A DNA stretch of 46,668 nt from Oscillospiraceae bacterium (lineage in GTDB: Bacteria; Bacillota; Clostridia; Oscillospirales; Oscillospiraceae). Position 1 is the first letter of the stretch. Each line of letters opens with the position of its first letter. Where the stretch lies: assembly GCA_902798545.1 (NCBI GenBank), contig CADBWQ010000028.1, positions 1-46,668 of the forward strand, in the 5' to 3' direction. Shown one piece after another: positions 1 through 29,784 of the stretch. The notes beneath the pieces were generated by a model that did not search any database, was not told the origin of the DNA, and saw nothing but the letters and a program-made list of their open reading frames with translations. A program made the translations under genes and the position numbers.

Positions 1-1769
1 GTCGGGAAGGCGTTGACCCAGCCGCGGGCCGCGTAGTACTCAGGCAGCGTCAGCGGCAGCTGAGAGAGCATGCCCTTGGAAGGACCGTTGGTGATGGGCT
101 CTTCCAGCAGACGCTTGGGCAGGCGGTCATCCTCGGGCTTCATGCCGGCGGCCTTGTTGAACATACGCTCGATGTTGTAGATGCGGTCGCCGATCTCCAG
201 AAGCTGTTCCACGGTCCAGGTGGTGCCGGTGGCGGCGTTGAGCAGATCCGCGTATTCCTGGGCACCCAGGGCGAAGGAGGTGAACAGGCAGTTGCCCATG
301 GAGTCGATGACGGCGGTCAGATCCTGGAAGGTCTTGGCCCAAGCGGCCTTGTCGGTGGTGACGGTACGATCCAGCTGCTGCGGCAGACCGAGGACCTCCG
401 GAGAGATCATGTAGCCGCGCACGTGAGCGGCGCCGCAGTTGGCGGTGGCGTAGTTGATGCCGATGCCCTGGATGGCGCGGGCGTCGTAAGCGGGGATCTC
501 CTGCTTCTTGACGCTCATGGAGTACTCGGGGTGACCGTAGTGCTCGCAGAGGCGGGCGGAGCCGGAGGACATGAGCCAGTCAAGCTCGGTCTCGGGATCG
601 CCCATGCGCTTGGTCCACTCGACCAGCGCTTCCTTGCTGCCCCACTCCAGCGGCACGCCGGCGCAGTCCTCTTCCTTGATGTAGCCGCGCTGATACAGCT
701 CCATCGCGGCGGCGATGGTGCAGGGTACACCGATGGCGTCCAGGCCGTACTCGTTGCAGAGGCGGTTGCACTCGTCGATGGTGTAGAGATCATCGTTGCC
801 GCAGTCGCTGCCGTAGGCCCACAGGGGCTCGTACTCGGGGCCGCCGACGACCTTGTCGCCGTGGTTGATTACGCGGCCGCAGGCGATGGGGCAGTGATAG
901 CAGGCGCCGGGCTTCTTCAGGTATTTCTCAGCCAGCGTCTCGCCGGAGAACTGGTCGGCGGTGGGGCAGTAGCTCTCCTGCCAGTTCTTGGTGGGCAGGG
1001 CGCCGATGCCGTTGATGATGTTGACCAGAACGGCCGTGCCGAGAGCTCGCAGACCCTGGCCGGTGACGCCGTTGTCGGCGATGATCTTCAGCGCGCGCTT
1101 GTTGGCTTCCTTCAGAGCTTCCACGTCGGCGATGACGTCCAGCTGCTTGCGGGTGGCCTTGACCACGATGGCCTTGAGCTTCTTGCTGCCCATGACGGCG
1201 CCGGTACCGGAACGTCCCGCGGCGCGATCCTTGTCGTTCATGACGGCGGCCAGCAGAACCTGCTTTTCACCGGCAGGGCCGATGTTCAGGACGGAGCAGT
1301 CGGCACCGTGCTTTTCCTTCAGCTTGTCGTCAAGCTCTTCGCTCAGAACACCCAGATACTCTCTTGCATCGAGGATCTCAATCTTGTCGTCCACGATGTT
1401 CAGGTAGCACCAGTCAGGAGCCTGACCTTCGACGATCAGCGCGTCCCAGCCGGCGAACTTCAACTTGGCACCCCAAATGCCACCGGAGTTGGCGCAGGCG
1501 ATCATGCCGGTCAGCGGGGACTTGGTCACGACCATGTAGCGGCCGGAGGAGGGAGAGTTGGAGCCGGTCATGGGGCCGGTGATGTAGATGAGCTTGTTGT
1601 CCGGGGACAGAGGATCAACCGTTGCCACACCCTCATCATAGAGGATCTTGGTGCCGAGTCCGCGGCCGCCTATGAACTTTTTTGCAAGTTCCAGATCCAG
1701 CGGTTCCGCCTTGATCTCGCCGGTGCTCAGGTTTATGCGGGCGATTTTTTCATAGTAAGCGTCGCTCAT
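1..1769 (-). CDS. aor: Aldehyde:ferredoxin oxidoreductase (tungsten enzyme), 3' end cut by window
   Basis: The minus strand reads open from ATG at 1769 to the window edge (589 codons); family members are about 600-620 residues, so only a short C-terminal piece is missing. Members oxidise aldehydes to acids with a tungsto-bispterin cofactor and one [4Fe-4S] cluster and pass electrons to ferredoxin, in the cytoplasm. Seen: an N-terminal GGRGLGTKIL segment, TGPMTGSNSPSSGRY, a cluster motif CYHCPIAC (C-x2-C-x3-C) with a later Cys in GNCLF, and the cofactor-region stretch GINYATANCGAAHVRG. An AGGAGGAA site lies at 1775-1782. The neighbouring moeA genes, molbindin and tungstate importer fit a W enzyme. 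The substrate cannot be told from sequence. The long plus-strand ORF over this gene is antisense shadow. Confidence 0.95.
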   Translation of the reverse strand, partial: MSDAYYEKIARINLSTGEIKAEPLDLELAKKFIGGRGLGTKILYDEGVATVDPLSPDNKLIYITGPMTGSNSPSSGRYMVVTKSPLTGMIACANSGGIWGAKLKFAGWDALIVEGQAPDWCYLNIVDDKIEILDAREYLGVLSEELDDKLKEKHGADCSVLNIGPAGEKQVLLAAVMNDKDRAAGRSGTGAVMGSKKLKAIVVKATRKQLDVIADVEALKEANKRALKIIADNGVTGQGLRALGTAVLVNIINGIGALPTKNWQESYCPTADQFSGETLAEKYLKKPGACYHCPIACGRVINHGDKVVGGPEYEPLWAYGSDCGNDDLYTIDECNRLCNEYGLDAIGVPCTIAAAMELYQRGYIKEEDCAGVPLEWGSKEALVEWTKRMGDPETELDWLMSSGSARLCEHYGHPEYSMSVKKQEIPAYDARAIQGIGINYATANCGAAHVRGYMISPEVLGLPQQLDRTVTTDKAAWAKTFQDLTAVIDSMGNCLFTSFALGAQEYADLLNAATGTTWTVEQLLEIGDRIYNIERMFNKAAGMKPEDDRLPKRLLEEPITNGPSKGMLSQLPLTLPEYYAARGWVNAFP

Positions 1770-2047: not shown

Positions 2048-2989
2048 ATGGCGCAAAACAAATCACTTTCTACACAGGAGGTCGCGGAGATTCTCCATGT
2101 GAGCAAATCCACGATCTACGAGCTGATCCGCCGGAGTGAGATCAACTCCTACAGGGTCGGGCGCAAGGTTCGCTTTACCCAAGACGATGTGGACGCCTAC
2201 ATCGCGCGTTCGCGACATGAACAGAGCGTCCAGCCGGTCCGGCGCGTAGAGATCAGCAGTAAACTGCTTCATCCCGCCGACAGGGGAGAACACCCCTTCG
2301 TGATCTCCGGCCAAGATGTGGTGCTGGATATCCTGAGCAATTACCTGCATCAGAACGGCGTCGGAACGGACCGGTGCTATCTCAGCAGTTTTGAAGGGCT
2401 GCTGGCCTTATATGAGAAGAAAGTAGATGCGGCGGCCTGCCATCTGTACGCAGTGGATGAAAAGAGCTTCAATGTCCCATATGTCAGGCGGCTGATGCCG
2501 GGCGTAAAGGCAGTTTTGATCAATGTGTCCTATCGCAAACAGGGCTTCTATGTAGCGGCAGGCAACCCGAAAGGAATCCGTGGCTGGCGCGATCTGGCCC
2601 GGCGGGATATCTCCATTCTCAACCGCCGCCCCGGCTCTAGCGCACGCATCCTGCTGGATGAGCAGCTGTTCCGTATGGATCTGGACCCCAGGCAGATCAA
2701 GGGCTATGAACGGGAGATGAAATCCCACCTGACGATGGCTGCTGCCATCGCCGACGGAGATGCGGATCTTGCCCTTGGCACGGAGCGCGTCTCCCGGCAG
2801 ATCGACGGGCTGGACTTCATTCCCCTGTTGGAGGAACGCTATGATCTGGTGCTACGCAGAGAGACCATGGAAACCGCGGAGGGCGAGGCGATACTGGAGA
2901 TCCTGCGCTCGGCAGCTTTCAAAAGAGACATCCGCCACTTCACGGGGAATGACTACCGGGATATGGGGAAGATCATCTCGGAGGTGTAG
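2048..2989 (+). CDS. HTH transcriptional regulator with PBP-like sensor domain
   Basis: 313 residues. Residues about 5-55 form an excisionase/MerR-like helix-turn-helix (STQEVAEILHVSKSTIYELI followed by the wing-like GRKVRFTQDDVDAY). Residues about 85-305 match the PBP-superfamily domain found in molybdate/tungstate-linked regulators and fused to some MoeA proteins, with the RRPGSSARILLDEQ and KGYEREMKSH segments. The same domain ends the MoeA-like protein at 4207-6123. It opens an operon with two moeA genes, faces aor divergently, and is flanked by GAAAC-block repeats that are its likely binding sites. The ligand (tungstate, molybdate or a pterin) is not visible from sequence. The next ORF starts 2 bp after the stop. 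Confidence 0.85.
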   Translation: MAQNKSLSTQEVAEILHVSKSTIYELIRRSEINSYRVGRKVRFTQDDVDAYIARSRHEQSVQPVRRVEISSKLLHPADRGEHPFVISGQDVVLDILSNYLHQNGVGTDRCYLSSFEGLLALYEKKVDAAACHLYAVDEKSFNVPYVRRLMPGVKAVLINVSYRKQGFYVAAGNPKGIRGWRDLARRDISILNRRPGSSARILLDEQLFRMDLDPRQIKGYEREMKSHLTMAAAIADGDADLALGTERVSRQIDGLDFIPLLEERYDLVLRRETMETAEGEAILEILRSAAFKRDIRHFTGNDYRDMGKIISEV

Positions 2990-2991
2990 AG

Positions 2992-4203
2992 ATGCTTGAG
3001 GTAAAGACCCCGGAAGAGGTTCTCCGGCTGATTGAGACAAAATTCAAGCCGCTCGGCAGGACAGAGAACGTCCCGCTTTCCGCGGCACTTGGCCGTGTGC
3101 TGGCCGAACCGATTATAGCACAGGAATATGTCCCGGACTTTGACCGTTCCACCGTGGACGGCTACGCCTGCCGCGCTGCGGATACCTTTGGCTGCTCCGA
3201 CGCGATCCCGGCGATCCTGAGTGTTACCGGACAGGTGCTGATGGGTGAGAGCGCTGACTTTGCTCTTTCCCGCGATACCTGCGCCTATGTCCCAACCGGC
3301 GGCGCAATCCCCAAAGGCGCCGACTGCGCGGTGATGATCGAATATACCGAGGACTACGGCGACGGCACCGTTGGGATCATGAAACCGTGCGCGCCGGGGA
3401 TGAATCTGATCTTCCGGGGCGACGATGTGTCTCCCGGTAAGGAAATCCTCCGCAACGGGCGTGTACTCACTGCCCAGGATATCGGAGCGCTGGCAGCGAT
3501 AGGAAAGACAAGCGTGCCCGTGGTGTGCCGGGTGAAGGTCGGAGTGATCTCTACCGGGGACGAGCTGGTGCCTCCCGATGCGACACCGGGGCCCGGGCAG
3601 GTGCGGGATGTCAACGGCCCGCTTCTGACCGCCTTGCTGGAAGCTTTTGGCGCAGAGGTAATCAACTACGGCATTGTGGTGGATGATGAGGAGCTTCTGC
3701 GCCAGAAGATGCAGGTAGCAGCGCAGGAGTGCAATGCAGTGATTATCTCCGGCGGCAGCAGCGTGGGGGTCAAAGACGCGACCTGCCGCATCATCGAAAG
3801 CATGGGAGAGCTGCTTCTCCACGGCATCGCCATCAAGCCGGGCAAGCCCACCATTATGGGCAAGGCCGGCAACAAGCCTCTGATCGGCCTGCCCGGCCAT
3901 CCCGGGGCCGCCTGCTTTGTGGCACAGCTCTTCGTCCTGCCGTTGCTGGGTCGGCTTATGGGAAGAAAACAGGAAGGCTTTACGGTCACGGCGGAATTGA
4001 CTGAGAGCCTGGGCGCCAACCATGGACGGGAGCAGATCAACGCCTGCCACCTGCTGCATGAGGGTGGTAAGATTCTGGCTTCGCCCATCCGGTCCAAGTC
4101 CGGCCTGATCACGCAGCTTGCCGGGGTGGACGGTTTTTTCATCATTTCGCGTGACTGCGAGGGGCTCCCCAAGGGCGCGCAGGTGCAAGTATATCTGTAT
4201 TGA
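2992..4203 (+). CDS. moeA: Molybdopterin molybdenumtransferase MoeA
   Basis: 403 residues, the normal MoeA length. MoeA inserts Mo or W into adenylylated molybdopterin, the last step of cofactor assembly. Seen: the N-terminal domain with STVDGYA and PTGGAIPKGADCAVM, the MoaB/MogA-like domain with STGDELVPP, ISGGSSVG, KPGKPTIMGK and GLPGHPGAA, and the C-terminal domain (about 330-400). It starts 2 bp after the regulator gene and ends 3 bp before the second moeA, so translation is probably coupled. With an AOR and a tungstate importer close by, W is a reasonable metal, but sequence alone does not tell W from Mo. Confidence 0.93.
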   Translation: MLEVKTPEEVLRLIETKFKPLGRTENVPLSAALGRVLAEPIIAQEYVPDFDRSTVDGYACRAADTFGCSDAIPAILSVTGQVLMGESADFALSRDTCAYVPTGGAIPKGADCAVMIEYTEDYGDGTVGIMKPCAPGMNLIFRGDDVSPGKEILRNGRVLTAQDIGALAAIGKTSVPVVCRVKVGVISTGDELVPPDATPGPGQVRDVNGPLLTALLEAFGAEVINYGIVVDDEELLRQKMQVAAQECNAVIISGGSSVGVKDATCRIIESMGELLLHGIAIKPGKPTIMGKAGNKPLIGLPGHPGAACFVAQLFVLPLLGRLMGRKQEGFTVTAELTESLGANHGREQINACHLLHEGGKILASPIRSKSGLITQLAGVDGFFIISRDCEGLPKGAQVQVYLY

Positions 4204-4206
4204 GGT

Positions 4207-6123
4207 GTGGATATGGGCTTTGAGTATTTGACCAATGTGCCGCTGGATCGGGCAAAGAAGGAATACTTTTGGAAGCTGCAGGACAATGGCTTCAGAACAC
4301 AGCTGGAAACTGTTCCGGTACAGGAGTCTTTTGGGCGTATCACGTCCCGAGCTGTCTATGCCAGGATTAACGCGCCGCATTACGCGGCCAGCGCCATGGA
4401 CGGCGTGGCGCTGCGCGCCATGGACAGCTTCGGCGCTACTGAGACGACTCCCATCACTCTGGGGGAGGATAAGTTCATTGCCGTGGACACCGGAGACCCG
4501 ATTCCGGAAGACTGCGATGCGGTTATTATGGTGGAGGACATCGTCAAAAACGACGACGGCAGCATCACGATCCACGCCGCCGCCGCACCCTGGCAGCATA
4601 TCCGGCAGATCGGCGAAGATATCTGCGCCGGGGAAATGATCCTGCCCAGCTTTATGGAGATCACCCCCGCCGCCATCGGCGCCATGATCGCAGGAGGTGT
4701 ACTGGAGGTCGAGGTCATCCGTCGTCCGGTGGTGGGCATTGTCCCCACCGGAGACGAGATCATCCCGCCCTGCGCCAATCCCAAGCCGGGCGACATTCTG
4801 GAGTTCAACTCCTCCATCTTTTCCGCCATGCTGAAAGGCTGGGGCGCCGAACCCAAGACCTATCCCATCGTGCCGGATCGCCTGGAGACCATCAGGGATA
4901 TGGTCGCGAAAGCTGTCGACGAGTGCGACATGGTGATCCTCAATGCCGGCTCCTCAGCCGGCAGGGACGATTATTCTACCACCGCCGTGCGCGAGATCGG
5001 CGAGGTGCTGTATCATGGCGTTGCCATCAAGCCCGGCAAGCCCGCAATCCTTGGCTTTCGCGGAGCCAGGCCCATTCTGGGAGTGCCCGGCTATCCGGTA
5101 TCCGGCATCATCGTGATTGAGGAATTCCTGCAGCCGCTGATTGACGCCTGGTACGGCAGGGAGAACGACAAGGGCAGCCGCACGTGGGCAAAGCTCACAA
5201 GGCAGGTGGTCTCGGGACTCAAGTATCAGGAATTTGTGCGCCTGCGCATGGGCTATGTGGGAAATTCTTTGATGGCCTCCCCGCTGCCCCGCGGCAGTGG
5301 TGTGGTATCCTCCTTTATGAAGGCAGACGGCATGCTGGAGGTCCCGCAGGGCAAGGAGGGATATTCCGCGGGCGAAGAGGTCCGCATCCGACTGCTCAAG
5401 AGCAAGGGACAGCTGAAGAACACGCTGGTCGTCATCGGCAGCCATGACCCGCTGCTGGATGAGCTGACGGATCTGATCCACAAGGAGGATCACCGCGTCT
5501 TCCTCTCCTCGGCCCATGTGGGTTCCATGGGCGGGATCATGGCAATCCGACGGGGTGAAGCGCATGCGGCGGGCATCCATCTGCTCGATACGGAAACGGG
5601 AGAATACAACCGCAAATACATCCGAAAGTATTTTCCCCACGGCGGCGTTTATCTGGTGCGCTGCGTGGGGCGGCAGCAAGGGCTGATGCTGCAGAAGGGC
5701 AATCCGCTGAGTATCCGGAGCTTCGCGGATATCGGCAGAGACGGCGTGCGCTACGTGAACCGGCAGAAGGGCTCCGGTACGCGCATCCTGACGGACTATC
5801 TATGCCAAAAGGAGGGTGTCGACCCCGATCGGGTCTATGGCTACGAGCGGGAGGAAGTGACTCATAACGCCGTGGCCGTACAGATCGCCGGAGGCAGCGC
5901 GGACGCAGGCATGGGCATCTATTCCGCGGCAAAGCTCTATGATCTGGATTTCCTGCCCATTTGTGTGGAAGAATATGATCTGCTGATCCCGGAGAGCGTC
6001 TGGAACATAGGACTTGTCAAGCAGTTGATCCGCACGCTCAAAAGCAAGGCGTTCCGGGATCGTATCGAGGCCATGGGCGGATATACGCTGGACCGGCCGG
6101 GTGAAATCATCGACGTTTTCTGA
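4207..6123 (+). CDS. MoeA-like protein fused to C-terminal PBP-like domain
   Basis: 638 residues. Residues about 1-400 are a full MoeA, with SAMDGVALRAMDS, DTGDPIPEDCDAVIM, PTGDEIIPP, NAGSSAGRDDYS, KPGKPAILG and GVPGYPVSG. Residues about 410-635 are a PBP-superfamily domain with GSHDPLLDEL, RQKGSGTRILTDYL and YGYEREEVTH, homologous to the sensor of the regulator at 2048-2989. Two MoeA paralogues in one operon recall the MoeA1/MoeA2 pairs of tungsten users. The fused domain may bind oxyanion or a cofactor intermediate; this is inference. The stop TGA overlaps the ATG of the next gene by one base. Confidence 0.9.
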   Translation: MDMGFEYLTNVPLDRAKKEYFWKLQDNGFRTQLETVPVQESFGRITSRAVYARINAPHYAASAMDGVALRAMDSFGATETTPITLGEDKFIAVDTGDPIPEDCDAVIMVEDIVKNDDGSITIHAAAAPWQHIRQIGEDICAGEMILPSFMEITPAAIGAMIAGGVLEVEVIRRPVVGIVPTGDEIIPPCANPKPGDILEFNSSIFSAMLKGWGAEPKTYPIVPDRLETIRDMVAKAVDECDMVILNAGSSAGRDDYSTTAVREIGEVLYHGVAIKPGKPAILGFRGARPILGVPGYPVSGIIVIEEFLQPLIDAWYGRENDKGSRTWAKLTRQVVSGLKYQEFVRLRMGYVGNSLMASPLPRGSGVVSSFMKADGMLEVPQGKEGYSAGEEVRIRLLKSKGQLKNTLVVIGSHDPLLDELTDLIHKEDHRVFLSSAHVGSMGGIMAIRRGEAHAAGIHLLDTETGEYNRKYIRKYFPHGGVYLVRCVGRQQGLMLQKGNPLSIRSFADIGRDGVRYVNRQKGSGTRILTDYLCQKEGVDPDRVYGYEREEVTHNAVAVQIAGGSADAGMGIYSAAKLYDLDFLPICVEEYDLLIPESVWNIGLVKQLIRTLKSKAFRDRIEAMGGYTLDRPGEIIDVF

Positions 6124-8997: not shown

Positions 8998-9026
8998 TTG
9001 AAATACCTCTTCGCAAATGCTACACT
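8998..9026 (+). promoter_or_regulatory. tupA promoter
   Basis: TTGAAA (8998-9003), 17-bp spacer, TACACT (9021-9026). The expected transcript start near 9033 leaves a leader of about 120 nt before tupA. Confidence 0.65.
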
Positions 9027-9041
9027 ACAGTCAAGTTAATA

Positions 9042-9135
9042 CGCTTATTGGATAAGCGGTGGACGAGCCTCTTTCCGCGAGCAGGACCGGTACAGCAGAG
9101 CTGTGCCTGTTTTGTTCTGGAGAGAGGTAATTTTT
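9042..9135 (+). promoter_or_regulatory. Structured tupA leader RNA, possible riboswitch or attenuator
   Basis: A perfect 7-bp hairpin (CGCTTAT, loop TGG, ATAAGCG; 9042-9058) is followed by a long stacked hairpin. Its layers are CCTCTTTCC (9068-9076) with GGAGAGAGG (9119-9127), CAGGAC (9082-9087) with GTTCTG (9114-9119), and GGTACAGC (9089-9096) with GCTGTGCC (9100-9107) around loop AGA. A U-rich TAATTTTT follows, then the ribosome site near 9138. The layout resembles an attenuator. I did not recognise a known riboswitch class. Confidence 0.5.
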
Positions 9136-9151
9136 ACAGGAGGAAAAGCAA

Positions 9152-10192
9152 ATGAAAAAAATCGTATCCCTGATGCTTGCACTGGTAATGTTTTTTGCAC
9201 TGGCCGTCTGCGGACAGAGCACGGCTCCCGCCTTTGCAGCAGCCGAAGAACCCGCTCCTGCCGAAGAAGCAGCGCCTGTGGAAGAGCCTGCTCGTGAGAC
9301 TGACGCAGTGGTAGTCGACACCTGCATCCTTCTGGAAGCGGACGACGCCATGATTAACAACTACAGCCTGCTGGCCGTAAACCCCGAGGCACCCTGGGTC
9401 GATGCCGACGGCAACCCGGTCAGCGACGTGGCGATCAACACTGTCGGAGCCGCAGCGCTGATCAACTGGCTGCTCTCCGAAGAAGGCCAGGAACTGGCTG
9501 CCAACTATGGTTTTGAAGAGTACGGCGAGTACCTGTTCTATCTCAAGGACGACCGCCCCGTCTCCACCGCTGAGATCCCCGCGGCTACCGAGGAGAACAG
9601 GCTGATCCGCCTCTCCACCACCACTTCCGTCAACGACTCCGGTCTGCTGGGATACATGCTGCCCATATTTGAAGAGAAGTACGGTTACGAGGTCGAGGTC
9701 TACTCCGCCGGAACCGGCAAATCCATCGCCAATGCCAAAATGGGCAACGCCGACCTGATTCTGGTCCACTCCAAAAAGCAGGAGGAAGCCTTTATTGCCG
9801 ACGGCTTCTCCTGTGTAATCGACGGCATGGAAGCCGAGCGCCTGAACTGGATGTACAACTACTTTGTGCTCTGCGGTCCCTCTGCGGATCCTGCCGGCGT
9901 CAAGGATGCTGCTGACGTAAAGGCTGCTTTTGCCGCGATCGCCGAGGGCAAGTTCCCCTTTATCTCGCGCGGCGACGGTTCCGGCACGCACACCAAGGAG
10001 CTCAGCCTTTGGCCCGAAGAACTGGGCATCACAGCCGAGGCCGAGAGCTTCAAGGATTACACAGACTGGTACATCTCCGCTAACACCGGCATGGGCGCCT
10101 GCCTGGTCATGGCCGAGGAGATGAACGCCTACATTCTCACCGACAAGGCCACCTTCCTCACATTTGTCGCCAACGACGGCGTAATGGGTTGA
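9152..10192 (+). CDS. tupA: Tungstate ABC transporter substrate-binding protein TupA, circularly permuted
   Basis: 346 residues, preceded by AGGAGG. The exported protein binds tungstate outside the membrane for the TupBC importer. A signal peptide (1-19) ends in LAVC, an imperfect lipobox, followed by a Pro/Glu/Ala linker (24-50). The usual TupA body is clear: LIRLSTTTSVNDSGLL (151-166), the SAGTGKS segment, NYFVLCGPSADPAG, SRGDGSGTHTKE (272-283) and YILTDKATFL (327-336). The segment that normally ends TupA (INNYSLLAVNP, VSDVAINTVGA, WLLSEEGQELA, YGEYLFY) is instead at 68-130, before the body, and the protein stops at 346 where that segment should follow. This is a circular permutation relative to known TupA. 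tupB and tupC follow. Confidence 0.88.
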   Translation: MKKIVSLMLALVMFFALAVCGQSTAPAFAAAEEPAPAEEAAPVEEPARETDAVVVDTCILLEADDAMINNYSLLAVNPEAPWVDADGNPVSDVAINTVGAAALINWLLSEEGQELAANYGFEEYGEYLFYLKDDRPVSTAEIPAATEENRLIRLSTTTSVNDSGLLGYMLPIFEEKYGYEVEVYSAGTGKSIANAKMGNADLILVHSKKQEEAFIADGFSCVIDGMEAERLNWMYNYFVLCGPSADPAGVKDAADVKAAFAAIAEGKFPFISRGDGSGTHTKELSLWPEELGITAEAESFKDYTDWYISANTGMGACLVMAEEMNAYILTDKATFLTFVANDGVMG

Positions 10193-10267: not shown

Positions 10268-10954
10268 ATGGGTTCCTCTATCCGAAAGGCGGTCGAGCTG
10301 ATCCTCTCGGCAGATCCCGAACTTCTGAATATCCTCTCCACCACAGCGCGGGTCTGCCTGAGCAGTTCGATCCTGGCACTGATTATCGGTGTGCCTCTTG
10401 GCATCCTGTTCGGAGCGGAACGCTTCCCGGGGAGGAGAGTGCTGTTGGTGCTCAACCGCACGCTGATCGGCATGCCGCCTGTGGTCTGCGGCCTGCTGTT
10501 CTATATGCTCTTCTCCGGCGTTGGACCTTTCCGTCATCTTCATCTGCTCTTTACAGTCAAGTTGATGATCATCGCTCAGGTCGTGCTGATCACACCCATC
10601 ATTATCGGCGTCATGGAAACCTTTGTAGCGGACACCGCACCGGCCCTGCGCGAGACTGCCAGAGGCCTGGGCTTTGGCCGGATGAAAGAATACCGGCTGC
10701 TCATAAATGAGTGCCTGTATTCTATTTTCTCGTCGTATCTCCTCTCCTTTGCCCGTGCCATTGCGGAGGTTGGCGCCGTGGCCATGGTCGGCGGCGCGAT
10801 CGCCTGGAAAACGAACGTGATGACTACCGCGATCATGATGTACACCAACCGCGGCAGTTTCACCCTGGGAATCGCCTTGGGACTCATCCTGCTGTCACTT
10901 TCGCTCCTGGTGAACATTATCCTCAGCGTGATGCAAGGGAGGCTGAGCCGATGA
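10268..10954 (+). CDS. tupB: Tungstate ABC transporter permease TupB
   Basis: 228 residues with several hydrophobic helices. This is the membrane subunit of the importer. The ATG at 10268 follows AAAAGGACGG. Seen: an N-terminal periplasmic/first-helix segment, the PPVVCGLLFYMLFSG helix, the EAA-type cytoplasmic loop (ALRETARGLGFGRMKEYRLL) that docks on the ATPase, and the conserved ARAIAEVGAVAMVGG stretch characteristic of Tup/Wtp-type permeases. Its end overlaps the tupC start (ATGA). Confidence 0.9.
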   Translation: MGSSIRKAVELILSADPELLNILSTTARVCLSSSILALIIGVPLGILFGAERFPGRRVLLVLNRTLIGMPPVVCGLLFYMLFSGVGPFRHLHLLFTVKLMIIAQVVLITPIIIGVMETFVADTAPALRETARGLGFGRMKEYRLLINECLYSIFSSYLLSFARAIAEVGAVAMVGGAIAWKTNVMTTAIMMYTNRGSFTLGIALGLILLSLSLLVNIILSVMQGRLSR

Positions 10955-11604
10955 AAACGAACGCCTTTTCAAAAACGTACAACGGCCGTACTGTACTCAC
11001 CCTGCCGGCGTTGGAACTTCCGACTGGACAGATCACTGCAGTCATTGGCCCTAACGGCAGCGGTAAATCCACTTTTGCAAAAATCCTCGCGGGGATTGAG
11101 CGCACGGACGACAAGAAACCGATCCTCTCCGGTATCTCAGTCGGCTATCTTCCGCAGAAGAGCTTCCCCTTCCGCATGAGCACGGAAAAGAATATTCTGC
11201 AGAACGGGAAGAATCTCTCTCGAGCGACGAAACTCATGAAGATGCTTGGAATCGATCACCTTGCAAAGCAGAGCGCGAAAAAGCTTTCAGGAGGAGAGTC
11301 AGCTCGCATGGCTCTCTGTCGCATTCTGATGCGTCCCTATGACCTGCTGATCCTTGACGAGCCGACGACAGCCATGGATATGGAGTCCACCCTCGTTGCG
11401 GAAAAACTCATCCGCCAGACAAGCAGAGAGCAGGGCTGCGCGCTCGTGCTGATCACCCACAGCATCTCCCAGGCCCGGCGCATTGCGGACCGCGTGATTG
11501 TCCTGCATCAGGGCCAGTTCATCGAGCAGGGCCAAAGTGTTCAGGTCCTGAGCAAACCGAAGCAGGAGAAAACAAAACACTTTCTGGAATTTTATGGTTT
11601 GTAA
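10951..11604 (+). CDS. tupC: Tungstate ABC transporter ATP-binding protein TupC
   Basis: 217 residues from the ATG in the ATGA overlap with tupB; a longer in-frame reading from further upstream is only the shadow of tupB. Seen: Walker A GPNGSGKST, a Q-loop at YLPQK, signature LSGGE, Walker B LLILDEPTT and switch His in LITHS. No TOBE domain follows, as usual for TupC, so the separate mop gene may supply the anion-binding regulatory function. It hydrolyses ATP on the cytoplasmic face to drive tungstate import. Confidence 0.9.
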   Translation: MKTNAFSKTYNGRTVLTLPALELPTGQITAVIGPNGSGKSTFAKILAGIERTDDKKPILSGISVGYLPQKSFPFRMSTEKNILQNGKNLSRATKLMKMLGIDHLAKQSAKKLSGGESARMALCRILMRPYDLLILDEPTTAMDMESTLVAEKLIRQTSREQGCALVLITHSISQARRIADRVIVLHQGQFIEQGQSVQVLSKPKQEKTKHFLEFYGL

Positions 11605-28397: not shown

Positions 28398-29583
28398 TCA
28401 GAACTCGAGGTTCTTCTCGGTTTCCTTATTGAAGACGTGGACGACATTGCCCTGGAAGGCAAAGTGGAGGGTGTCGCCGATGCTGTAGTTACCCTTCATG
28501 TCGATGGTCGGAACAATGATGATGACGTCGCGGCCTTCGGCAGACACATGCAGGTGCACGCTGGAGCCCATCATTTCAGAGACATCAACCTTTGCGGCAA
28601 CGCCCTTGTCTGCCAGGTCGGTGTGCTCGGGACGAACACCGAGAACGACATCCTGAGACTGGACATTGTTCTTCAGCAGGCGGGCTTCCTTCTCGGGGGA
28701 GAGCTCTACTTTGTAATCAGCAAGCTGAGCAAAGTACTTGTCACCCTCGCGGATGAGCTTGGCATCGAACATGTTCATGACGGGCATGCCGATAAAGCCT
28801 GCAACGAAGAGGTTGGCCGGATGATCGAAGACTTCCTGAGGAGTACCGATCTGCTGGATATAGCCGTCACGCATGATGACGATACGGTCACCGAGCGTCA
28901 TAGCCTCGGTCTGGTCATGGGTGACGTAAATGAAGGTGGTATTGATACGCTCACGGAGCTTGATGATCTCAGCACGCATCTCATTACGCAGCTTGGCGTC
29001 GAGGTTGGAGAGCGGCTCGTCCATCAGCATGACCTTCGGGTCACGGACGATGGCACGACCGATGGCGACACGCTGTCTCTGACCACCGGACAGAGCCTTG
29101 GGCTTACGCTCAAGATACTGGGTGATGTCGAGGATTTCAGCGGCTTCACGGACTTTCTTGTCAATGACGTCCTTCGGCTCCTTGCGAAGCTTCAGGGAGA
29201 AGGCCATGTTGTCATACACGGTCATGTGAGGATACAGAGCGTAGTTCTGGAAGACCATGGCGATATCGCGGTCTTTCGGCGCGACGTCGTTCACGAGCTT
29301 GCCGTCAATGATCAGCTCACCACTGCTGATCTCTTCAAGGCCGGCGACCATGCGAAGTGCGAAGGGTAGTGGACTTACCGCAGCCGGAAGGTCCGACCAG
29401 AACGATGAATTCCTTGTCGGCGATGTCAAGGTTGAATTCCTGAACGGCGACAACACCTTCATCAGTGATCTGGAGATTGACTTTCTTTTTCTCCGGTTCG
29501 TCAGCTTTCTTTTTCTTTTTCTTTTGCTCGCCGCTTACGAAGGGGTAGACTTTCTTGATGTTTTTCAGCTGAACAGTTGCCAT
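28398..29583 (-). pseudogene. msmK: MsmK/UgpC-type sugar ABC importer ATPase, frameshifted
   Basis: Two reading frames together give a complete sugar-importer ATPase of about 392 residues. Frame 1 starts at ATG 29583 ([14 protein letters not shown]), has a Lys-rich insertion, and reaches Walker [11 protein letters not shown] before stopping at HGRRP. Frame 2 resumes at [11 protein letters not shown] and continues through LSGGQRQRVAIGRA, MDEPLSNLDAKLR, VTHDQTEAMTLGD and the TOBE/OB tail (GVRPEHTDL). The break is a 7-bp tandem duplication (29351-29364); removing one copy restores one frame. Such ATPases serve several carbohydrate importers in Firmicutes, so loss would matter widely. A sequencing error or a reversible variant are alternatives. 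Confidence 0.9.
29351..29364. repeat. 7-bp tandem duplication that breaks msmK
   Basis: TGCGAAG occurs twice without a gap on the plus strand (CTTCGCA twice on the coding strand), right after the Walker A codons. One copy encodes the expected LRM; the second shifts the frame. Confidence 0.9.
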
Positions 29584-29719
29584 GCTTCCGACTCCGGATA
29601 TCCGGCCTCCGCCAGAGATATCCTCACGGTCACCTGCAGAGAGATGTACCGCATTACGACAGGTCTCCACACTGCCGCACCCCGAGCCTGGGGATGAACA
29701 CTTCCTCCTTATTAAAGCT

Positions 29720-29750
29720 GTATACGACTTAGAAATGGAGAGCCGTATAC
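29720..29750. promoter_or_regulatory. Inverted repeat in the msmK leader
   Basis: GTATACG (29720-29726) and CGTATAC (29744-29750) are perfect inverted arms 17 bp apart, 28 bp downstream of the predicted transcript start. It could be an operator or an RNA stem. An AAGGAGGAAGTG lies nearby on the minus strand, about 120 nt before the accepted start. Confidence 0.4.
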
Positions 29751-29784
29751 GCAGTCAGAATATGGGTATAAAAAACCCTACGTT

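Follow-up and report, generated by a model that had tools for sequence, protein, structure and literature searches.

A natural circular permutation of the tungstate-binding protein TupA, predicted to be functional, in an Oscillospiraceae bacterium and its relatives

Natural circular permutation of the binding protein of an ABC importer has been described for TpMglB-2 (Tp0684) of Treponema pallidum, a circularly permuted glucose-binding protein for which the class 'Type Ic' was proposed (PMC4990184). In the literature that we searched, as far as its texts were available, this is the nearest precedent for the protein described here and the sole described case of its kind. Canonical TupA is represented by the structures 3lr1 (Geobacter) and 5my5 (D. 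alaskensis), with which 3muq (Vibrio), an entry that names no function, was grouped in this study. According to the accessible part of PMC5517513, lobe A of TupA comprises residues 2-76 and 201-251, the central strand residues 77-89, and lobe B residues 91-200; the ligand residues of the D. alaskensis protein are T9-11, S12, H59, R118, T124, and D170. At the RNA level, the Moco/Tuco riboswitch has been found ahead of molybdenum/tungsten transport and cofactor genes, in some cases with terminator-like stems, as described in the available part of PMC2408646. Among enzymes, the members of the tungsten oxidoreductase family nearly all use tungsten, according to the available part of PMC11980592.

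The stretch of DNA analysed here, referred to as the window, comprises 46,668 nucleotides of an Oscillospiraceae bacterium. It carries a tupA gene in which the last quarter of the canonical protein stands first (Table 1). No earlier report of a permuted TupA was found in the open literature searched, among the matches listed.

Table 1. Features of the tupA locus and its surroundings in the window
Feature	Coordinates	Strand	Basis
Aldehyde ferredoxin oxidoreductase (AOR) family, tungsten enzyme family, cut by window end	6..1769	-	PF01314, 433.7 bits at 15-1106
Three molybdopterin-biosynthesis-type genes, including a MoeA-like gene and a MoeA fusion	2048..6123	+	PRK14498
Promoter-like site TTGAAA-17-TACACT, TG before second hexamer	8998..9026	+	consensus match only
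Conserved leader hairpin, invariant GGTGGACGAGCC at 9058-9069	9041..9086	+	pair counts
Attenuator-like long hairpin (9067-9128, predicted) and U run (9131-9135); overlaps the conserved hairpin	9067..9135	+	folding
Circularly permuted tupA, 346 aa	9152..10192	+	single frame, profile and PDB matches
Signal peptide and Ala/Glu/Pro-rich tether, residues 1-53, weak lipobox LAVC	9152..9310	+	sequence
Old C-terminal segment, residues 55-132	9314..9547	+	profile match, canonical TupA positions 184-250
New linker, residues 131-149, old C-terminus to old N-terminus	9542..9598	+	alignment, rotation test
Old N-terminal body, residues 147-341, TTTS 156-159, H206, R273, T279, D331	9590..10174	+	profiles, PDB alignment
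tupB permease	10268..10954	+	NF038017 ABC_perm1 passed (181 bits, cut-off 100); TupB NF041773 fell short (143.8 bits, cut-off 320)
tupC ATPase, named by position	10951..11604	+	ABC ATPase, PF00005, 86.4 bits

Order of parts in the window TupA

The original prediction had placed the C-terminal segment of TupA at residues about 56-130 and the body at 150-346, and the profile comparison located them at 55-132 and 147-341, respectively. The linker (LKDDRPVSTAEIPAATEEN, residues 131-149) joins the old C-terminus to the old N-terminus as predicted. The single frame of 346 aa, the ribosome site (AGGAGG at 9138-9143, 8 bases ahead of the ATG), and the permease and ABC ATPase genes downstream likewise agreed with what had been claimed from the letters.

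In the phmmer search, the best PDB match was 3lr1, whose chain residues 5-178 were aligned with window residues 149-338. A second piece of 3lr1 was matched out of order, residues 55-80 falling on 183-208 with 4.2 bits, which is weak when taken alone; for 3muq, the second piece (residues 56-117 on 183-233) reached 10.3 bits. The best stretch against the NCBIfam TupA model NF041772 was residues 151-341 on model positions 16-192 of 266. A profile of 252 positions was built in this analysis from 38 canonical TupAs. The native chain matched this profile in two pieces, namely residues 147-338 on positions 3-180 (228.5 bits) and residues 55-132 on positions 184-250 (42.3 bits). Residues 51-346 were then rotated and all 296 rotations were scored against the profile. 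The best rotations, with cuts at 135-145, gave a single piece on positions 3-250 with 278.0 bits. Among the rotations printed (every eighth), cuts 123 to 155 resulted in one piece, and cuts 51-115 and 163-339 in two. The canonical order, body followed by C-terminal segment, was absent from the window TupA in this test. The rotated chain also matched NF041772 in one piece (18-252 of 266, 146 bits). The curated cut-off of that model, 400, was missed by the native chain (136), the rotated chain (146), and the canonical relative L187 (210) alike.

The occurrence of the permuted order in other genomes was monitored at increasing taxonomic distance. It was present in 47 of 102 sampled genomes of the genus, the window genome included (long matches; in two frames in one genome), and no canonical TupA was seen in the same 102 genomes among the matches listed; in E-value order, the matches below the permuted ones cover only the query start, that is, signal peptide and tether. 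Sixty of the 400 genomes of the family sample had a match, 41 of them permuted and 10 in canonical order; the other nine were six lobe-A-like proteins, one divergent protein (G141), one weak body-only match (G429), and one short match (G114). The permuted order occurred in 4 of 394 genomes of the order sample and 4 of 391 of the class sample, with the window's own genome counted in each. In the phylum sample, 147 of 299 genomes had some match, and among the matches listed the permuted order appeared only in the window's own genome. Permuted TupAs thus cluster in a single family and occur only sporadically in the other families of the class. Overall, 221 loci were fetched, overlapping ones counted, of which 176 were permuted, 40 were canonical, and 5 were body-only ORFs. 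One permuted tupA lies on a 4.8-kb contig labelled Coriobacteriales, another phylum, which may reflect transfer or mis-binning.

Two explanations would deny a genuine permutation. A faulty assembly or binning could have joined pieces of contigs into the permuted order, and it could be noted in favour of this that the best 80 of 205 relatives from the named collections, all permuted, are mostly MAGs (labelled Oscillospiraceae, Ruminococcaceae, Lachnospiraceae, Clostridia or similar), and that the copy L052 (G052:C89) is broken over two frames. However, dozens of assemblies, drawn from many genera, show the same junction, at 71-85% identity in 15 aligned relatives. Close homologues, which the original prediction had named as the place to look for the canonical order, have the permuted one (47/102, 41/400, and the best 80 of 205 in the samples above). 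Since the order is also found in the single-contig genome G178 of the family sample and in Flavonifractor sp. An92 (L150), a record without a MAG label, misassembly is out, and we give it practically no weight. The circular permutation of the window TupA is real. The other explanation is that the N-terminal segment is an unrelated domain with similar residues acquired by convergence, for which its modest score by itself, 42.3 bits, could speak. Nevertheless, the segment fits those profile positions that are missing from the body match, segment and body become one continuous match on rotation, and the canonical L083 matches the segment at 53% identity; convergence is thus a very improbable reading.

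Lobes, ligand residues and gene neighbourhood

The window protein was mapped onto 5my5 (chain number = residue + 23), using lobe limits and ligand residues as given in the accessible part of PMC5517513. The ligand residues fell on window positions 156-159, 206, 273, 279, and 331, and the TTTS, His, Arg, Thr, and Asp so defined showed no variation across all 55 permuted sequences compared. Y201 of TupA corresponded to window Y71 and the central strand to residues 231-243, with which the long strand of the structure model (231-242) agrees. By this mapping, the cut would lie at about TupA 180-184, in lobe B ahead of its last strand, and segment 55-132 would consist of the last strand of lobe B (55-70) and the C-terminal part of lobe A (71-132). 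Lobe A, which is discontinuous in canonical TupA, would be one piece here (71-230), lobe B would be discontinuous (54-70 plus 244-341), and the N-terminal tether would have moved from lobe A to lobe B. The alignment with the published lobe limits therefore supports the earlier suggestion that the anchor is placed on a different lobe. As for the lipid anchor itself, the window lipobox is weaker than had been stated, being LAVC with Val before the Cys. A start could be identified for 108 distinct permuted proteins (12 without a start found and 56 duplicates omitted). Of these 108, 86 had a lipobox, 7 had a weak one of the window's LAVC sort, and 15 had no Cys. Lipidation of permuted TupA is not universal.

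The structure model, putatively two-lobed, had a mean pLDDT of 92.4 and a pTM of 0.85, values that lend no support to the concern that it might fail to close. Since the linker is gapless in 16 aligned permuted sequences, carries a motif like EIPAATEET, and was modelled at high confidence, it is probably structured. Foldseek returned 11 matches with an E of 0.001 or lower. The top three were 3lr1, 3muq, and 5my5, so that the tungstate-binding 3lr1 and 5my5 rank first and third. The alignments with these TupAs spanned about 190-204 columns, approximately the body, with query TM of 0.31-0.52 and rmsd of 3.9-9.4. Foldseek is a sequential aligner and therefore covers only about the body; given this coverage and the low query TM, the place of the segment in space rests on homology and on the model's own confidence.

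Behind the 176 permuted ORFs, overlapping loci counted, tupB was found on the same strand in 166 and tupC in 160. In six, where no more than 1700 bases followed, tupB alone was found, and ten, with no more than 900 bases of contig left, had neither; the spacing of tupA and tupB/tupC was printed for three loci only. Upstream of the window tupA, the AOR-family and MoeA-type genes lie within 7.5 kb. The AOR-family gene scored 203 bits against NF007354, under its cut-off of 868; PRK14498 scored 724 bits, above its cut-off, for 4207-6120, and the other two genes were below cut-off. We take PF01314 to belong to the tungsten oxidoreductase family. The AOR family was also matched in 5 of 14 control genomes, including E. 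coli, and is thus not specific to TupA carriers. No second, canonical TupA was detected in the window genome at E 0.001, the only further matches being two of the signal-peptide kind. XdhC, presumably a molybdenum-hydroxylase helper, is also encoded in this genome. Elsewhere in the window, a malK-I RNA (Rfam RF03069, 132.9 bits) is located at 29578-29758 on the minus strand.

The dN/dS ratio with the window was 0.03-0.11 in all 11 pairs (dN 0.035-0.069, dS 0.52-1.44), the 11 loci being taken from those with a gapless 879-base match. The permuted tupA is under purifying selection. Together, the conserved order, this selection, the intact ligand residues, and the tupBC linkage bear out the original remark that the protein looks functional.

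Alternatively, the protein could be a neofunctionalised paralogue, having lost tungstate binding and reusing tupBC for a different oxyanion, for instance molybdate or sulfate. This might account for the three short insertions relative to the canonical sisters (seen by eye), for the NF041772 score under the TupA cut-off, and for the presence of XdhC in the genome. However, all TupA ligand residues reported in the available part of the source are invariant in the 55 permuted sequences, and the protein is the sole TupA match of its genome and is encoded near a tungsten-type AOR; we regard such a change of function as improbable. From sequence and gene neighbours, we suggest that the permuted TupA still works, and it is very probably a functional, natural circularly permuted TupA serving as the extracytoplasmic tungstate receptor of a TupABC importer. 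The old C-terminal segment would pack as in canonical TupA, the cleft would bind tungstate and close on it, and the loaded protein would dock on TupB2C2 as usual.

Origin, shortened relatives and leader RNA

In a tree of body plus segment, 48 permuted rows (thinned at 86% identity, a few retained by choice) were separated from 38 canonical rows by one branch with support of 100/100. In the phylum-sample tree (19 canonical, 20 permuted), the permuted clade was nested within canonical diversity, as sister to the canonical L083, L084, L187, and L256 (97/81); the bootstrap of this tree was not settled, and some long branches join elsewhere in it. The TupB partners, for those loci with a TupB match (43 vs 25), were divided alike (100/99), in a tree with a long-branch warning among the canonical rows. 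Since the permuted proteins form one clade nested among canonical TupAs and TupB splits alike, the permuted order is most likely derived, and the last quarter was apparently moved to the front once in evolution. The protein L102 had an end branch of about 10 in a first quick tree, in which the permuted rows required two changes, and was dropped from the 48-vs-38 tree; the 5 body-only ORFs were otherwise excluded from the trees. The likeliest route would be a tandem duplication whose two copies fused and then lost their outer parts, although no intermediate of such a duplication was found. The frames of 695 aa (G028) and 553 aa (G036), considered as fused double copies, each proved to contain a single permuted protein of the ordinary kind, preceded by open frame. 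The locus L281 (G1500:C8) has a canonical tupA on either side of tupBC, which hints at duplication only; its first copy (L256) groups in the sister of the permuted clade.

Diverged and shortened proteins were also encountered. The G141 protein (L102/L253, G141:C31) is a diverged full-length relative, in permuted order by eye, that has lost the ligand motifs, and no permease or ABC ATPase was recognised among its listed neighbours. Short proteins (L275-L280) occur in 6 of 400 family genomes (G450, G346, G475, G420, G184, and G388). With the start guessed, they are about 200-230 aa long, and by eye each has a Cys-type signal peptide. Their matches, at 34-44% identity, are confined to window residues 62-227 (segment, linker, and the first half of the body). 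TTTS is absent from all six, a linker motif can still be recognised by eye in five, and the 2.3-4 kb fetched around them contained no match to tupB or tupC. Because of the order of their parts, we read them as candidate single-lobe derivatives of the permuted form.

Three promoter-like sites of the kind listed in Table 1 were found where 0.7 were expected. At minimum energy (-51.8 kcal/mol, z -7.44), 9041-9146 folds into a structure that includes the long hairpin and leaves out the conserved one, and the consensus scan called only the inner hairpin 9089-9107 terminator-like. Since the two hairpins overlap and the fold holds the long one only, this suggests two exclusive states and, thus, attenuation. 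The pairing of the conserved hairpin was tested on a diverse choice of 54 sequences out of the 72 distinct ones. Overall, 82.3% of cells could pair, and 60 cells were changed on both sides, compared with 20.8 (sd 6.1) in shuffled data. Slid partners paired less, 72.9% at +1 and 61.1% at -1. The +1 slide came near on covariation (54 cells, score 0.282 vs 0.302), probably due to an outer stem that is shifted by one base between sequences. As the sequences were picked via the 12-mer GGTGGACGAGCC, the two pairs within the 12-mer itself are uninformative.

Of 108 distinct permuted loci, 73 have the exact 12-mer no more than 500 bases ahead of the first conserved segment, and of 37 canonical loci none does; duplicates (57 permuted, 2 canonical) and short loci (9 permuted, 1 canonical) were set aside. 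The model R1, run on 72 chosen loci (40 non-permuted), gave 7 matches at E<=0.05, all permuted, the best non-permuted one having an E of 0.83. The locus of Flavonifractor sp. An92, which carries the permuted operon, gave no R1 match at E<=1. In the window genome, R1 had one match at E<=1 (150 of 907 candidates scored). Across 400 family genomes, 27 matches in 25 genomes passed 1e-3, and 23 of them were at permuted tupA. The one in G128 lies ahead of a short gene near a contig end; those in G187 and G311 lie ahead of an operon for a lipoprotein of about 1000 aa and a FecB-like transporter, with PF00174 (molybdopterin-binding, 35.2 bits) and PF01497 in G187. The remaining match, G184:C29, is within an ORF and was taken as chance. 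Three loci (L061, L067, and L078) have two tandem copies of the 12-mer, 73-77 bases apart. The leader hairpin had no match in Rfam, the Moco/Tuco model included. We regard the leader RNA as a lead, a candidate riboswitch. Should it sense a ligand, tungsten uptake in gut bacteria would have a new regulator.

Comparison with known systems

Like the window leader, the Moco/Tuco motif lies ahead of genes for molybdenum/tungsten transport and cofactors and may carry terminator-like stems. As described in the available part of PMC2408646, it has a central multistem junction, whereas the window leader shows a single conserved hairpin. The window protein shares with canonical TupA (3lr1, 5my5) the homologous body and segment, the same ligand residues, and the tupABC set. 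It differs in that the last quarter comes first, the tether enters lobe B by the mapping, a new conserved linker is present, and there are the insertions mentioned above. Surveys using full-length TupA scores may overlook such proteins, which were found here in many gut bacteria related to Clostridia.

A broader proposal is put forward tentatively and with some doubt. This may be the first natural circular permutation of the ModA/TupA type, with the tether transferred to the other lobe and with a lobe A that is contiguous and separable and later escaped as single-lobe lipoproteins. The permuted form would also travel with a leader RNA of a new class, by which tungsten and molybdopterin operons are attenuated.

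As far as the accessible part of PMC4990184 describes it, TpMglB-2 resembles the window protein in being a natural circular permutation of a tethered ABC binding protein with ligand binding kept, which for the window protein is a prediction. TpMglB-2 has the Type I sugar fold, a different cut, and an added fourth crossover; the window protein does not have the Type I sugar-binding fold, its homology being to TupA. The permuted part of TpMglB-2 has only 13% identity with its canonical counterpart, whereas the TupA homology of the window protein is clear. The permuted TupA stands beside TpMglB-2 as a second case. Its homology is clear on both sides of the cut, canonical sisters are still extant, the origin is single, and the linker is conserved. 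It permits a direct test of whether the tethered lobe matters and of how hinge topology affects closing and docking.
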